Shown here in pieces: positions 17,092 through 24,020 of a stretch of DNA of 64,000 nucleotides (its first letter is position 1; every line of letters begins with the position of its first letter). Below the pieces are notes generated by a model that did no database searches, was not told where the DNA came from, and saw only the letters and a list, made by a program, of their open reading frames with translations. The stretch is from Candidatus Bipolaricaulota bacterium (lineage in GTDB: Bacteria; Bipolaricaulota; Bipolaricaulia; Bipolaricaulales; Bipolaricaulaceae), in assembly GCA_938084715.1 (NCBI GenBank), contig CALKES010000009.1, positions 62,001-126,000 on the forward strand, read 5' to 3'. Position numbers and translations under genes: made by a program.

Positions 17092-19908
17092 TTATTCTCT
17101 GGGCTTCCGTTTCTCAACCACCGTGGCCACGGCCGCGGGGAGGAAGGTGAGGCTCCAGAGAAGGGTGAACCCCAAGCCGAGGAGGGCCGAGGCCCCGAGC
17201 AGCCGCAGCCCCGGCGTGTGGGCCGCCAGGAGGGCCCCGAACGAGGCCATCGTGGTCAAGGAGCTCACGACGATGGGGATCGCGCTGGCGGCCGCCCCCC
17301 GCACCGTGGCCTCCCCGCCCTTGGCCCGCTCCTCCTCCACCCGATGGAGGAGGTGGACCGCGCTGTCGACCCCGATCCCGATGAGGAGCGGGGAGATCAC
17401 GATGTTGGTGAAGTTGAACGCGATCCCCAGGAGGTTCATCCCCGCCAGCATCCACACGTAGCCCATCCCCAACGGGGCCAGGGCGAGGGCGGCCTCCCAT
17501 GGGCGAGGGAAGTCCCGCCACACGAGGACGAAGATGATGGCGAGCGCCAACGCGCTGGAGAGGAGGAAGTCGTTCCTCATGTAGGTCTCAAGCTGCGCCG
17601 TCACCTCGGGGAGCCCAAACCGGTCCACCCCAAGGCCGTCGGCAAACTCCAGGAACCGCCGGAGGTTGTCGCCCTCGTAGAGGGTCGGAAGCAGGCGGGC
17701 CTCGACGATGTACCGAGGGGGGGTGCCCTTCGTGGCGTACCGCGCCCGGATCTCGAGGGGAAGCAGCGTGAGGATCTGGTCCAGGAGGGCTGCCTCAGCC
17801 GGCAGGCCTTGGATCTTCGCAACCAAGGTCTCGATTGTGGACAGGTCGCCCTCCAGGGCGACCAGGCCCGCCCGCTTGCCCTCCACATCCACCCCTTCCA
17901 GCTCCTGGAGAAGCTCCCAGAGGTCCTCAAACCCGCGGGAGAGGGCCTCGGCAAGGGGGGCGTTGCCCATCACCAAGGAGGCGAGTTCCGCCTGGGGAAG
18001 GCGGACCAGGAGCTCGGTGAGCTCGGCCAAACCGTCCCCCCACCGCCCGAGGAGACCGATCAAGGCATGGACCCCCTCTTGGGCCTCGTCCAACGGGAGG
18101 TGGAGGATCGAGCGCTCCCGCCCCAGGAGCTCCTGGGGGAGGAGCTCGCGCACCGAGGCGACGGAGTGGACGAGGGGGGACTGGAGGAGCTTCTCCTCCA
18201 GGGGCCGGATGTCCTCGGGGCGGTCCACGAAGAACCGGAAGTAGTAGCTGAGCCACACGTCTCCCCCGAACTCCCGGATGACCGTGTTGAGCGTCGTCAT
18301 CGCCGGGGTCGGCGGGGCCAGGTCATCGGAGACGAACCGAAACTCGACCCGGCTCGCCTGGTAGGCGAGGGCAGCGGTGAGGAGGAGCCCCACCGCCACC
18401 ACCCCCGGCCGGAGGCGGAGGAAGCGCCGGTAGGCCGGCTGCACCGCCCCCGCAGACACGATCGGGCGCCACCGCACCGATCGGCGGTCCCGGACGACGA
18501 GGGCGACCAGGGCCGGGGTGAGGAGGACCGTTGTCGCCAGCGAGAGGAGGATCCCCACCCCACTGATCACCCCCATCTCGTACAGGGCCCGGGAGTGGGA
18601 GAGGAGGAGGCAGGCGAACACGGCCGCCGTGGTCAGGGCCGCGGTGAGGCAGGCCGTACCCTTCGTCCGCACCGCGGTGACGAGGGCCTCCCGCACCCGT
18701 TCCCCCCTCGCCCGCTCCTCCACGTACCGGGAGAGGATGTGGACCGAGTAGTCGATCCCCAAGCCCAGGATGAGGGCGGGGAGGAACACGGTGAGGAGGT
18801 TGAACCCGCCGACGGCGAACTTGGCCCAGGCCATGGTGAACAGGGCCGAGACGAGCACCGGGGTCAGGGCGCACAGGCAGAGGGGCAAGCTCGCAAAGGC
18901 CAGGAACACGAGCCCAAACACGATGCCCGACGACACGGCCGTCACGAGGGCCATGTCCCGCCGGATGGCCGCATCGGCCTCCACGGTGGTGACGTACGTT
19001 CCCGTGATCTCGGCCGACACCCCCAGCCTCTGAAGCTCCCCTTGAGCCCTCCCCAGGGCCTCCCGCACGTGCTGGGTCACCTTCTGGTTGAAGGGAAGGG
19101 ACTCCACGGGGCGCCGCGTGGGCCAGACCTGGAGCACAAGCCGACTGCCGTCCCGGGAGAGGATCGGCTCGCCCGTGGTCGGTGGGGGCGAGCGGGCGAG
19201 AACGGCCTTCACGATCCTGGCCGCTTCGGCGACCAGCTCCCGCTGGGCGAGGACCCCGTCGAGGGCCCGCAAGGCCGCCCGGGCGCCCACCACGAGCTCC
19301 GCCACCGCCCGGTCGACCGCGGCGGGGTCGGTCCAGGAGAGGTCCCCCACCGGAGGTCCCCCGTGCCACGGCCCGAGGTCGGGGCGAGGGGGAAGCCTCC
19401 GCCCCAGCTCCTCCGCGATCGCCCGAAGCCGGTCGAGTTCGGATGGGGAGAGGGTTCGGAAGATGACGAGCTCGGAAGGGACCTGGACCCCCTCCCCAAC
19501 CCGGTACGAGGCCGCCTCGAGCTCCGGGGTCTCGTCAACCCGGAGCTCCCCGAGCACCCGCTCGGCCGCCTGGGTGAGGCGACCCTCGGCCTCCCTCCGG
19601 TCGGGCGCGGGCGAGGTGAGGGTGAACAGGATCGCCACCACGTCCGTGCTCGCCGTCTCCTCCTGCATCGCCTCGAACTTCTGGACGAGGGGGTCCCCCT
19701 TGGGGAGGAGCTCGAGGTACGCGGTGCGGATGGGGAAGTCCCGGATGTAGAGGTAGGCGAGGAGAGAGAGGAGGGCAAAGAGCCCCACGACAAGGGCGGG
19801 GAAGCGGGTGGAGAGCCGGGCCAGTTGTTCAAGCAGCCGTTCCCGCCGGGGGCGGGGGCTACCGGGCTTGGGCGCGTTCCCCGGACGGGGTGCGGATGGT
19901 GATGGCAT
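17092..19908 (-). CDS. MMPL/RND-superfamily exporter (HAE3-like)
   Basis: This is a 938-aa inner-membrane transporter with the RND layout: one N-terminal helix, a large periplasmic loop, a block of five or six helices, a second periplasmic loop and a second helix block. Each half carries the MMPL/SSD hallmark GLGIDYSVHILSRY (first half) or GIGVDSAVHLLHRVEEE (second half), with the proton-relay aspartates. HpnN-like hopanoid exporters and other lipid or hydrophobe exporters are the nearest types. ATG 19908 gives a 50-nt overlap with nusA. Later starts are possible because the first 20 residues are only Pro/Arg-rich. Confidence 0.88.
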   Translation of the reverse strand: MPSPSAPRPGNAPKPGSPRPRRERLLEQLARLSTRFPALVVGLFALLSLLAYLYIRDFPIRTAYLELLPKGDPLVQKFEAMQEETASTDVVAILFTLTSPAPDRREAEGRLTQAAERVLGELRVDETPELEAASYRVGEGVQVPSELVIFRTLSPSELDRLRAIAEELGRRLPPRPDLGPWHGGPPVGDLSWTDPAAVDRAVAELVVGARAALRALDGVLAQRELVAEAARIVKAVLARSPPPTTGEPILSRDGSRLVLQVWPTRRPVESLPFNQKVTQHVREALGRAQGELQRLGVSAEITGTYVTTVEADAAIRRDMALVTAVSSGIVFGLVFLAFASLPLCLCALTPVLVSALFTMAWAKFAVGGFNLLTVFLPALILGLGIDYSVHILSRYVEERARGERVREALVTAVRTKGTACLTAALTTAAVFACLLLSHSRALYEMGVISGVGILLSLATTVLLTPALVALVVRDRRSVRWRPIVSAGAVQPAYRRFLRLRPGVVAVGLLLTAALAYQASRVEFRFVSDDLAPPTPAMTTLNTVIREFGGDVWLSYYFRFFVDRPEDIRPLEEKLLQSPLVHSVASVRELLPQELLGRERSILHLPLDEAQEGVHALIGLLGRWGDGLAELTELLVRLPQAELASLVMGNAPLAEALSRGFEDLWELLQELEGVDVEGKRAGLVALEGDLSTIETLVAKIQGLPAEAALLDQILTLLPLEIRARYATKGTPPRYIVEARLLPTLYEGDNLRRFLEFADGLGVDRFGLPEVTAQLETYMRNDFLLSSALALAIIFVLVWRDFPRPWEAALALAPLGMGYVWMLAGMNLLGIAFNFTNIVISPLLIGIGVDSAVHLLHRVEEERAKGGEATVRGAAASAIPIVVSSLTTMASFGALLAAHTPGLRLLGASALLGLGFTLLWSLTFLPAAVATVVEKRKPRE

Positions 19909-20806
19909 ACCCGGTGAGCTTGGCCGCGAGCTCCACGTTGTGGCCGTCGCGGCCGATGGCGAGGGAGATGTCGCTTCCCGGCACCGTGACCAGGGCCGTG
20001 CGGGCCGGCTCGTCGAGCTCCACCTCGAGGGTGCTCGCCGGAGCGAGGGCCCCCCGGATCACCTGCCGCACGTCCTCGTTCCAGCGGACGATATCGATCT
20101 TCTCCCCCGACAGCTCCCGGCTCACGGCCCGGATCCGGCTCCCCCCCGGGCCGATGCAGCTCCCCACCGGGTCGATCCGCGGGTCCACCCCTCGGACGAG
20201 GACCTTCGACTTCACCCCGGCCAGGCGGGCTACCTTCACGACCTCGATCATCCCCCCCTCGAGCTCAGGGACCTCCAGGGCGAGGAGCTTGGCCACGAAG
20301 TCCGGGTGGGCCCGAGACACGTAGATCCGAGGGTCGCCCTGGGTCCGCTCCACTTTGTAGAGGTACGTCCGGAGCCTCCGGCCGGGGACGTAGCGCTCCG
20401 TGGGCATCCGCTCCTCCCCGGGGAGGATCGCCTCCACCTCCCCGAGGTTGATCCACACGTCCCGGCCCTCGAACCGGTGGACGAACCCGTTTAGGATCTC
20501 GCCAACCCGGGAGGCGTACATCTCGTAGAGGCCTTCCCGGCGGTGGCGGAGGATCTCCCGCCGGAAGAACTCCTCGGCGCGGCGGGACTCGATCCGCCCG
20601 AGCTCCTTGACGAGGTCGAACGGCTTTCCGTCCACGAAGATGTCCCCGGACCGGCGGTCGATCTCCACCCGCGGGGGGGCTTCCCCCCCGAACTTGGCCT
20701 GGTGGGCAGCGGCAATGGCCTTCTCCATGACCGAGAACGCCACCTCCCGGTCGATCCCCCGCGCGCGGGCCATCTCCTCGATGGCCTCGAGGAACTCGAT
20801 GTTCAT
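19859..20806 (-). CDS. nusA: Transcription termination/antitermination protein NusA (short)
   Basis: NusA binds RNA polymerase and nascent RNA and modulates pausing, termination and antitermination. The product is 315 aa with an N-terminal polymerase-binding domain (IEFLEAIEEMARARGIDREVAF), an S1 domain (about 130-195), and two KH domains (SCIGPGGSRIRAVSRELSGEKIDI and SLAIGRDGHNVELAAKLTGY). It ends right after KH2 and is shorter than B. subtilis NusA. AAGGAG precedes ATG 20806, which also overlaps the rimP stop (ATGA). The rimP-nusA order is universal; rimP-nusA is normally followed by infB and rbfA, but here by a transporter. Confidence 0.96.
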   Translation of the reverse strand: MNIEFLEAIEEMARARGIDREVAFSVMEKAIAAAHQAKFGGEAPPRVEIDRRSGDIFVDGKPFDLVKELGRIESRRAEEFFRREILRHRREGLYEMYASRVGEILNGFVHRFEGRDVWINLGEVEAILPGEERMPTERYVPGRRLRTYLYKVERTQGDPRIYVSRAHPDFVAKLLALEVPELEGGMIEVVKVARLAGVKSKVLVRGVDPRIDPVGSCIGPGGSRIRAVSRELSGEKIDIVRWNEDVRQVIRGALAPASTLEVELDEPARTALVTVPGSDISLAIGRDGHNVELAAKLTGYAITIRTPSGERAQAR

Positions 20807-21255
20807 CGGGCTCCTTGCTCGTAGACGACCCGGGCGAGGGCGATCTCGGCGAGCGGAACCGCCTGAGGCCCCCCCTCCACCTCGAGGACCACCGCGTCCC
20901 CTTCGAGCCCAAGGAGGCGCCCCTGGTGGGAGCTCCCGGACTTGATCCGGATGCGCACGGTCTTCCCCACCGCCTGGGCGTAGTGCCGGGGCTCCCACAG
21001 CCGCCGCTCGACCCCCGGGGAGGACACCTCGAGGAGGTACGGGCCCGGGACGGGGTCGTGGGCTTCGAGCAAGGCGTCGATGGCCCGGCTGGCCCGGACG
21101 CAGTCGTCGAGGGTGACCCCACCGGGGCGGTCGACCTCGACCACCAGGCGGGCCCTCCTCCCCAAGCGGTGGAGCTCCCAGTGGTAGACCTCCACCTCGG
21201 CCCTCGCGGCCCCCTGACGCAGCAGGGCATCGAGCCCATCGCTAGCCCGTTCCAT
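20803..21255 (-). CDS. rimP: Ribosome maturation factor RimP
   Basis: RimP assists 30S subunit maturation. The product is 150 aa. Visible family features are VVEVDRPGGVTLDDCVRASRAID in the N-terminal domain and YLLEVSSPGVERRL, the most conserved RimP motif, then a C-terminal SH3-like barrel. ATG 21255 has no ribosome-binding site, but TATAAT ends 7 nt upstream, so the mRNA is probably leaderless. It is the first gene of the long minus-strand run down to rnc and overlaps nusA by 4 nt. Confidence 0.93.
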   Translation of the reverse strand: MERASDGLDALLRQGAARAEVEVYHWELHRLGRRARLVVEVDRPGGVTLDDCVRASRAIDALLEAHDPVPGPYLLEVSSPGVERRLWEPRHYAQAVGKTVRIRIKSGSSHQGRLLGLEGDAVVLEVEGGPQAVPLAEIALARVVYEQGAR

Positions 21256-21262
21256 GCGGGGG

Positions 21263-21291
21263 ATTATACTTGGCACCGGTGACGGCCACAA
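21263..21291. promoter_or_regulatory. Overlapping divergent promoters of rimP and rluD
   Basis: One ATTATACT segment serves both directions. On the minus strand TATAAT (21263-21268) with TTGTGG 17 bp upstream (21286-21291) points to rimP, 7 nt from its ATG. On the plus strand TATACT (21265-21270) lies 8 nt before GTG 21279 of rluD. The two -10 boxes overlap by four bases. Both genes lack a ribosome-binding site. Confidence 0.6.
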
Positions 21292-22184
21292 CGAACGGAA
21301 CGCGCCTGGAGCGCATTGTGGTGGAGGCCGACGAGGGGGGCGAGCGGGTGGACCGCCTCCTCGCCCGGCGCCTGGGGATCCCCCGGTCCCTCGCCCAGGC
21401 CCTCCTCGCGGGGGGATCCGTGCGCGTGGGGGAGGAGCTCCCGTCCCGGTCCCGCCGGGTCCAGCCGGGGGAGGAGATCGTCGTGGGGTGGTCCGGACCT
21501 GGGATCGTTCCGACCCCGGTTCCGATCCCGATCCTCTACGAGGACGAGGACCTGGTGGTGGTGAACAAGCCCCGGGGGCTCAAGGTCCACCCCGTGGGCG
21601 CAAGATCCGAGGTCACGGTGGTCTCCGCGCTCCTGGCCCGTGGGCCCCTCGCGCCAGGGGAGCCGGGCCGGCCCGGGGTCGTCCACCGGCTCGACGCGGC
21701 CACCACCGGGGCCCTCGTCCTCGCCAAGACCCCCCGGGCCCTCGAGTCCCTCCTCGAGCAATTCCGCCGCCGGGAGGTGAAGAAGGAGTACCTCGCCCTC
21801 GTCCGGGGGGAGCTGGACGTCGCCGAGGGGGCGGTCGAGGGGAGCCTGGGGCGGGACCGCCGCCACCCGTGGCGGATCGCAGTCGGGGGAGGGAAGGACG
21901 CCCAGACCGAGTTCACCGTGCTTGCCCGGCGTGAGGGGAGGAGCCTCCTCCTCGTCCGGCCCCAGACCGGGCGGACCCACCAGATCCGGGTCCACCTGGC
22001 GGCGATCGGGCACCCGGTGGTCGGGGACCCCCTGTACGGAGGAGGTGCAGGGCCCCTCCACCTCCACGCCTGGCGACTCGGGCTTCGGCACCCCGCTAGT
22101 GGGGTGTGGGCCGAGTGGGAGGCCGGGCCCCCACTGGAGTTCGCCCCCTGGCTTGGCGAACGAGGTAGTACAGGGCCGCGCTGA
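21279..22184 (+). CDS. RluD-family pseudouridine synthase
   Basis: This enzyme isomerises uridine to pseudouridine, most likely in 23S rRNA. The product is 301 aa. It has an N-terminal S4 RNA-binding domain (residues 15-75) and a catalytic domain with VVNKPRGLKVHPVG, the catalytic-aspartate motif HRLDAATTGALVLAK, KKEYLALV, and RPQTGRTHQIRVHLAAIGHPVVGDPLYGG. I chose GTG 21279 over TTG 21270 because it lies 8 nt after a TATACT box. Which uridines are targeted cannot be told. Its last 89 nt overlap pgsA on the opposite strand. Confidence 0.9.
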   Translation: MTATTNGTRLERIVVEADEGGERVDRLLARRLGIPRSLAQALLAGGSVRVGEELPSRSRRVQPGEEIVVGWSGPGIVPTPVPIPILYEDEDLVVVNKPRGLKVHPVGARSEVTVVSALLARGPLAPGEPGRPGVVHRLDAATTGALVLAKTPRALESLLEQFRRREVKKEYLALVRGELDVAEGAVEGSLGRDRRHPWRIAVGGGKDAQTEFTVLARREGRSLLLVRPQTGRTHQIRVHLAAIGHPVVGDPLYGGGAGPLHLHAWRLGLRHPASGVWAEWEAGPPLEFAPWLGERGSTGPR

Positions 22185-22712: not shown

Positions 22713-24020
22713 ATGGACAAAATCAAGGTCGTCATCCTGGGGGCCGCAGGCCGGGACTTCCACAACTTCAACGTGCTCTTCCGGGACCGGGAGGAGTACG
22801 AGGTGGTGGCGTTCACGGCAACCCAGATCCCGGGGATCGAGGGCCGACGGTACCCGCCGGAGCTTGCCGGCCCCCTCTACCCTCGTGGGATCCCCATCGA
22901 ACCGGAGGCGAAGCTCCCCGAGCTCCTCCGGGCCCACGGGGTGGACCGGGCCGTTTTTGCCTACTCCGACGTCTCCCACGGGTACGTCATGGAGCGGGCG
23001 GCGATCGCCGCCGCGGCCGGGGCCGACTTCTGGCTCGTCTCCCCCCGGGCAACCCAGCTCCAGGCTCGGGTCCCCGTGGTCGCCGTGTGCGCGGTCCGCA
23101 CGGGGTCGGGGAAGTCCCAGACCACCCGCAGGGTGGCGCGGATCCTCAAGGAGCGCGGGAGGCGCGTCGTCGTCGTCCGCCACCCCATGCCCTACGGGGA
23201 CCTCGTCCGCCAGCGGGTCCAGCGGTTCGCGACCCTCGACGACCTCGATCGGTTCGAGTGCACGATCGAGGAGCGGGAGGAGTTCGAGCCCCACCTCCAG
23301 GGGGGGTTCGTGGTCTACGCCGGGGTCGACTACGGGGAGATCCTCCGCCAGGCCGAGGCGGAGGCCGACGTGATCCTGTGGGACGGAGGGAACAACGACC
23401 TCCCCTTCTTCCGCCCCGATGTCCTCATCGTCGTCGCCGACCCCCTCCGGGCAGGCCACGAGATGACCTACTGGCCCGGCTCGGTGGCGGTCCGCCAGGC
23501 GGACATCGTCGTCATCAACAAGGTGGACACCGCGGGGCTGGGGCCCGTGGAGCGGCTGCGGGCCTCGCTCGCCACCCTCAACCCCCGGGCGCGGGTCGTC
23601 GAGGCCGCCTCCCCAATCATGGTGGAGGACCCGGGTCTCATCGCGGGCCGGGACGTCCTGGTGATCGAGGACGGCCCCACGGTGACCCACGGGGAGATGC
23701 CCTACGGGGCCGGAGCGGTGGCGGCCCGGAAGCTCGGGGCTCGGCCCGTGGACCCCCGCCCCTACGCCCAAGGGTCCCTCGCCGAGGTCTACCGCGCCTA
23801 CCCCCACCTCGGGCCCGTTCTCCCCGCCATGGGGTACGGGAAAGCCCAAATCGCCGAGCTTGCGGCGACGATCGCCCGGGTTCCTTGTCAGGCGGTGGTC
23901 ATCGCCACCCCGGTGGACCTGCGGCGGGTGGTTCAACTGAACAAGCCCTCGACCCGGGTCCGGTACGAGCTCCAGGAGATCGGCCAGCCCACCCTCGCCA
24001 ACCTCCTTCCTCCCCTCTGA
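22713..24020 (+). CDS. CpgS-like predicted GTPase (cyclic 2,3-diphosphoglycerate synthetase family)
   Basis: This 435-aa protein belongs to the family that includes archaeal cyclic 2,3-diphosphoglycerate synthetase and bacterial homologues annotated as predicted GTPases. It has an N-terminal Rossmann-like domain (KVVILGAAGRDFHNFN), then a P-loop VRTGSGKSQTTRRVA at about residues 129-143, the switch/Walker B region VILWDGGNNDLPFF, and DIVVINKVD, the NKxD guanine-binding motif. TAGGGGGA lies 5 nt before ATG. It is monocistronic and divergent from pgsA. A role in making cDPG, a thermoprotectant in hyperthermophilic archaea, is possible but unproven for bacteria. Confidence 0.8.
   Translation: MDKIKVVILGAAGRDFHNFNVLFRDREEYEVVAFTATQIPGIEGRRYPPELAGPLYPRGIPIEPEAKLPELLRAHGVDRAVFAYSDVSHGYVMERAAIAAAAGADFWLVSPRATQLQARVPVVAVCAVRTGSGKSQTTRRVARILKERGRRVVVVRHPMPYGDLVRQRVQRFATLDDLDRFECTIEEREEFEPHLQGGFVVYAGVDYGEILRQAEAEADVILWDGGNNDLPFFRPDVLIVVADPLRAGHEMTYWPGSVAVRQADIVVINKVDTAGLGPVERLRASLATLNPRARVVEAASPIMVEDPGLIAGRDVLVIEDGPTVTHGEMPYGAGAVAARKLGARPVDPRPYAQGSLAEVYRAYPHLGPVLPAMGYGKAQIAELAATIARVPCQAVVIATPVDLRRVVQLNKPSTRVRYELQEIGQPTLANLLPPL

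Follow-up and report, generated by a model that had tools for sequence, protein, structure and literature searches.

Bidirectional promoters, at which RNA polymerase binds in either orientation, account for 19% of E. coli RNAs, with common start distances of 18, 10 and 23 bp (PMC12825309), and have been defined by divergent transcription starts that lie 7-25 bp apart (PMC10268837). Those described by Warman, Grainger and colleagues are common between divergent genes and carry a pseudo-symmetric -10 element on both strands; evidence for them comes from start-site maps and reporters in enterobacteria (PMC12825309, PMC10268837). Leaderless genes, defined by a 5' UTR of 0-5 nt (PMC5784534), have a TANNNT motif about 10 bp before the start codon (PMC3160421, PMC3898074, PMC12340547) and make up about 30% of ORFs in Deinococcus-Thermus (PMC12340547). 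In the relevant parts of these reports they are described as single genes (PMC3160421, PMC3898074, PMC12340547), and a text search found neither the word "divergent" nor the word "bidirectional" in PMC3160421 and PMC12340547. Adjacent and oppositely oriented genes that are both leaderless are found in prpD/Rv1129c of M. tuberculosis (PMC3898074) and cas12k/cvkR of Anabaena (PMC9938897), and the control region of EcoRV-type restriction-modification systems contains overlapping divergent core promoters with mutually exclusive polymerases (PMC5333194). No published case of a single -10 element serving two leaderless genes was found in the open-licence literature.

Here we describe such a candidate in a 64,000-nucleotide stretch of a genome of Candidatus Bipolaricaulota, bacteria that are for the most part uncultured (contig CALKES010000009.1, positions 62,001 to 126,000; hereafter the window), between rimP and a divergent rluD-like gene. 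The 23 bp between the two start codons read GCGGGGG-ATTATACT-TGGCACCG and are flanked by CAT (21253-21255) and GTG (21279-21281). The segment ATTATACT (21263-21270) gives TATAAT when read along the minus strand and TATACT along the plus strand, so that two TANNNT hexamers on opposite strands overlap reciprocally by four bases (ANTATANT). The minus-strand hexamer (21268-21263) is 7 nt from the ATG of rimP (21255) and the plus-strand hexamer (21265-21270) 8 nt from the GTG of the RluD-like gene (21279), and neither of these two intervals contains a Shine-Dalgarno-like run. A preliminary description of this DNA had reported the dual hexamer, both spacings, the 23-bp interval and the absence of ribosome-binding sites, and direct reading of the sequence agreed with it on every one of these points. 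A -10 box immediately upstream together with the lack of a Shine-Dalgarno run is the sequence signature of leaderless genes, and the 7 and 8 nt spacings predict a 5' UTR of 0-2 nt for both genes. The features of the locus are as follows.

19859-20806, minus strand: nusA (domain models); it overlaps the end of rimP, with which it is presumably co-transcribed.
20803-21255, minus strand: rimP, predicted to be leaderless, with ATG at 21255 (Pfam domains RimP_N and C-terminal SH3, both scoring above cut-off).
21255, minus strand: predicted transcription start of rimP, here or within 1 nt upstream (from -10 spacing).
21263-21268, minus strand: -10 hexamer TATAAT of rimP, a gene followed directly by nusA (sequence read; 0 changes in 34 loci).
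21265-21270, plus strand: -10 hexamer TATACT of the RluD-like gene, its TATA core common to the rimP box (sequence read and family comparison).
21279, plus strand: predicted transcription start of the RluD-like gene, here or within 2 nt upstream (from -10 spacing).
21279-22184, plus strand: RluA-family (RluD-like) pseudouridine synthase gene, predicted to be leaderless, with GTG at 21279 (domain models, gene caller, ATG at the same place in one genus member, L016).
21286-21291, minus strand: candidate -35 of rimP, TTGTGG, at 17 bp spacing within codons of the RluD-like gene (TTG at 16-18 bp in 31/34 loci).

RimP and RluD both act in ribosome maturation. For RluD, a role in helix 69 has been described (PMC12641178). 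The plus-strand product scored above the cut-offs of PseudoU_synth_2 and of the RluA subfamily model but not above that of the RluD equivalog, a small correction to the name rluD given to it previously and used below for brevity. Starts 21255 and 21279 were exactly those picked by a gene caller that relies on codon usage and ignores upstream signals. Two upstream starts, TTG 21270 in the rluD frame and TTG 21291 in the rimP frame, were rejected: lying across or ahead of the box, they could not form part of its transcripts. The host genome has 1.38 Mb in 38 contigs, and the 364 kb sampled here had 70% G+C. Farther along the plus strand, positions 22713-24020 are occupied by a long ORF with a P-loop-like stretch, whose best NCBIfam result was a weak MobB-like stretch, with no good match among these models.

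Compared with known leaderless genes, the locus has similar spacing, the same TANNNT form and a similarly high GC content. It differs from bidirectional promoters in that the start codons of rimP and rluD coincide with the inferred start sites, which would make the entire intergenic region promoter core; the predicted 24 bp between transcription starts compares with the 7-25 bp of the start-distance definition (PMC10268837), and optimal spacing would put the starts 21 bp apart. In cas12k/cvkR the starts are 82 nt apart, leaving room for separate promoters (PMC9938897), whereas rimP and rluD have 23 bp and one box. The EcoRV-type region is regulated by a C protein, and the C transcript there is not leaderless (PMC5333194); no regulator is evident at rimP|rluD. 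Bidirectional -10 elements and leaderless genes are each known; what is new here is their combination, which recurs and is conserved, and not the kind of promoter: two known economies, a symmetric -10 and leaderless mRNAs, are joined in a very tight layout.

Leaderless spacing is widespread in this lineage. In the 364 kb sample, 19 of the 342 called starts had a -10 box (at least 5/6 matches) 5-9 nt upstream, compared with about 0.2 expected from their overall density, and the same peak was seen in 420 kb of a second species, G001 (20/374 starts, about 0.3 expected), where it was made up of 17/212 first-of-unit genes and 3/162 inner genes. TANNNT (at least 4/6) occurred at this spacing before 29 of the 169 first-of-unit genes in the genome of the window. 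Shine-Dalgarno 5-mers at 3-10 nt preceded 53/169 first and 61/171 inner genes and the 16S 3' end carries the anti-Shine-Dalgarno sequence CACCTCCTTT, suggesting that both ways of starting translation are probably used in this genome. We found no start-site map for Bipolaricaulota in the open-licence literature. The indication that leaderless expression is common in this phylum matters for the annotation of gene starts there.

Homologs of rimP were found in 12/12 genomes of the genus, 37/40 of the family and 55/100 of the phylum. All 12 genus members had the exact ATTATACT, 7 nt (once 8 nt) from the rimP ATG and 8 nt from the rluD GTG, except that L016 has ATG in place of this GTG. This swap of one start codon for another at the same position, and the genome-wide -10 peak in two species, are both consistent with the leaderless expression that had been proposed. 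Within the family, divergent rluD adjoined rimP in 34 of the 37 rimP loci, and the exact 8-mer was present in 34/34 of these. The rimP ATG was 7-9 nt past the box in 30 of the 34 and 12-13 nt past it in four (L032, L035, L056 and L058), while the likely rluD start, 8 nt past the box in the genus, was mostly at 10-12 nt elsewhere in the family (L038 and L056 being ambiguous). These longer spacings make a leader of a few nt likely for one gene outside the genus.

The spacings bear on the alternative in which the box is the -10 element of both strands and initiation occurs a few nt upstream or is scattered, producing very short leaders rather than strictly leaderless messages. The 10-13 nt spacings outside the genus favor it, as does the optimal -10-to-start distance of 7 bp (PMC12825309), which would put the starts 1-2 nt before the codons here. 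Against it, all 12 genomes of the genus share spacings of 7 (once 8) and 8 nt, which leaves a leader of only 0-2 nt. We consider this alternative rather unlikely, and the reading that we favor is that ATTATACT is very probably a bidirectional core promoter which starts both genes as leaderless messages.

Invariance of the box was assessed by counting parsimony changes on the RimP protein tree for the 34 loci. No change was found in any of the eight box columns, compared with means of 7.4 in the seven spacer columns to the left, 10 in the eight to the right and 7.1 in the coding flanks, where 0/65 columns were unchanged; columns were ungapped, so insertions inflate the counts in distant columns. 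As the alignment was anchored on ATTATA (6 of the 8 box columns; L025, which has no box, was left out), the independent part of the zero-change result is the final C and T, along with the presence of the anchor itself at a near-fixed distance from rimP.

Three family rimP loci lacked an adjacent rluD. One of them (L025) had no box at all. In the other two, L024 (genome G016) and L040 (genome G039), the rimP TATAAT was kept at 7 nt and the box read ATTATACC; the flank examined was 444 nt for L024 and 155 nt for L040, and rluD was found elsewhere in both genomes. Thus, the last T of the box, which is specific to rluD, was T in 34/34 adjacent loci of the family and C in 2/2 loci with a rimP box but no adjacent rluD. 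Relocated rluD of G039 was located behind CTTATACT, 7 nt and ATG, having kept TATACT and lost the rimP-specific A. In G016 it was behind GCTACACT (TACACT), 17 nt and GTG, and the GCAGGA between box and start together with this spacing suggests that the gene probably has a leader. The RimP tree has no resolution at L024 and L040, and their separations may go back to a single event. Outside the family, ATTATACT persists in two loci of family f7 (L064 and L065), some 50 nt from the start of rimP, although about 1 kb around them contained no recognisable rluD; absence of rluD is thus not always accompanied by loss of the last T. With this counter-example, the absence of change in 34 loci and the loss of a gene-specific base after separation point to selection on the hexamers of both strands, as expected of the symmetric -10 element that had been proposed for two divergent leaderless genes. 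The invariant box and the base lost when a gene moves, each directly observed, provide evolutionary evidence that selection on a bidirectional -10 acts on both strands.

The same loci argue against a second alternative, that the box drives rimP only, TATACT being a by-product of the rimP requirement (AGTATAAT) and transcription of rluD beginning at an unrecognised site within rimP. In its favor, the hexamer of rimP is the better match (6/6) and is accompanied by a candidate -35, the f7 loci without rluD still read ATTATACT, and family f4 mostly keeps it at rimP though rluD starts farther away. Against it, the rluD-specific base was T in every adjacent locus and C in both separated loci of the family, where the remaining box bases were kept, and the relocated rluD of G039 has TATACT 7 nt before its ATG; the other leaderless-spaced genes listed do not as a rule have A at the corresponding -14 position. 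This alternative appears quite improbable. That the near-palindromic, invariant 8-mer is the operator of a regulator and not a core promoter is hardly credible, because many genes elsewhere in the genome, unrelated to these two, have TANNNT at the same distance and separated genes each keep their own hexamer, not the palindrome.

On the rimP strand, TTG occurred 16-18 bp before TATAAT in 31/34 family loci (21 at 17 bp) and in none at 14, 15, 19 or 20 bp. The preliminary description was correct on the shared -10 but did not mention this candidate -35 (TTGTGN). It is weak in the window, where TTGTGG matches 3/6 of a TTGACA-like consensus, and a scan of 20500-22100 for sigma-70 promoters with two good hexamers was empty, which indicates that the box has no strong -35; a strong two-hexamer promoter nearby was rejected on this basis. 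The TTG falls within the first few rluD codons, often as the Thr codon ACA. ACA accounts for 171/5043 Thr codons in the sample and for 16/172 among codons 2-11, and being commoner there than on average it makes the argument from a rare codon weaker than it looks. The position of TTG tracks the box and not the codon number: it stays at 16-18 bp when the rluD start shifts from 8 to 10-12 nt. On the rluD side, TTG was present at 16-18 bp in 0/34 loci and no -35 was evident, and we infer from this difference that rimP is the stronger direction.

From this layout we further infer transcription from both strands, the exact start sites and mutual exclusion. In the bidirectional core promoter that we propose, the TATA core with its flanking A and T gives both strands a TANNNT -10, so housekeeping RNA polymerase could bind the box in either orientation. 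In one orientation, helped by the weak -35 TTGTGN within rluD codons, it would start rimP-nusA at or beside ATG 21255; in the other, it would start the RluD-like gene at or beside GTG 21279. Both mRNAs would be leaderless and translated without Shine-Dalgarno sequences, as in a considerable minority of this lineage's genes. The box would hold one polymerase at a time, making the two orientations mutually exclusive, and 30S and 50S maturation factors would thus share one promoter. Such sharing may be selected for the balance of two ribosome-maturation factors or merely for compactness. A bolder and only tentative version is a minimal "zero-UTR" bidirectional promoter, kept family-wide, that sets the balance of 30S and 50S maturation by polymerase orientation. 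If so, eight bp would be the only conserved non-coding information common to two ribosome-maturation genes, the -35 of one gene would be written into codons of the other, and the lineage would use a near-palindromic box similarly for the lipoprotein-modifying pair lgt|lnt.

A chance origin of the shared box was rejected based on the parsimony counts and on genome-wide pattern counts. CAT N6-9 ANTATANT N6-9 RTG occurred once in the 1.38-Mb genome and the reversed control pattern did not occur. In the 12 genus genomes, 18 matches were obtained, all at two loci, versus 3 for the reversed control; 13 represented the 12 rimP|rluD sites (one listed on both strands) and 5 were at lgt|lnt. Among divergent pairs with called starts in this genome (G000), as listed automatically, a box was shared between both starts only at rimP|rluD; this listing undercounts, since the caller misplaced starts, in G000 those of lgt|lnt and in G001 that of rluD. 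When any in-frame start was allowed, the 45 divergent pairs gave 13 places with reciprocal TANNNT hexamers close to one or both starts, and both starts were at 5-12 nt only in rimP|rluD.

Outside the family, 17 rimP loci were obtained from 18 genomes with a rimP match; 45/100 phylum genomes, including all of family f9, had no match at E<=1e-3. Divergent rluD was present in 14 of the 17, with an estimated start-to-start distance of 35-120 nt and no sharing of a box. In L066-L071 (mostly family f4), the rluD start is farther off and several have TACTCT/TACCCT boxes about 9-10 nt before ATG; there are apparently two separate promoters where the family of the window has one.

The lgt|lnt pair, whose genes were identified with Pfam, is also divergent, and its box read ATTATAAT or a close variant in the majority of 30 family loci, including that of the present genome. 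This shared -10 is near-palindromic and often a perfect palindrome (L110, at about 37836 of C5 in G000; L102-L106 and L109-L138). In most genus members some 32-33 bp separate the two start codons; lnt is at leaderless spacing in several members and the lgt leader would be roughly a dozen nt, while in genus g6 lgt itself is 7-8 nt from the box. Other divergent pairs in this genome have leaderless spacing with two separate boxes, such as the pair at 79437/79501 of C5 in the joined stretch (L048), in which two separate TATACT boxes, neither shared by both starts, lie 7 and 8 nt before GTG starts.
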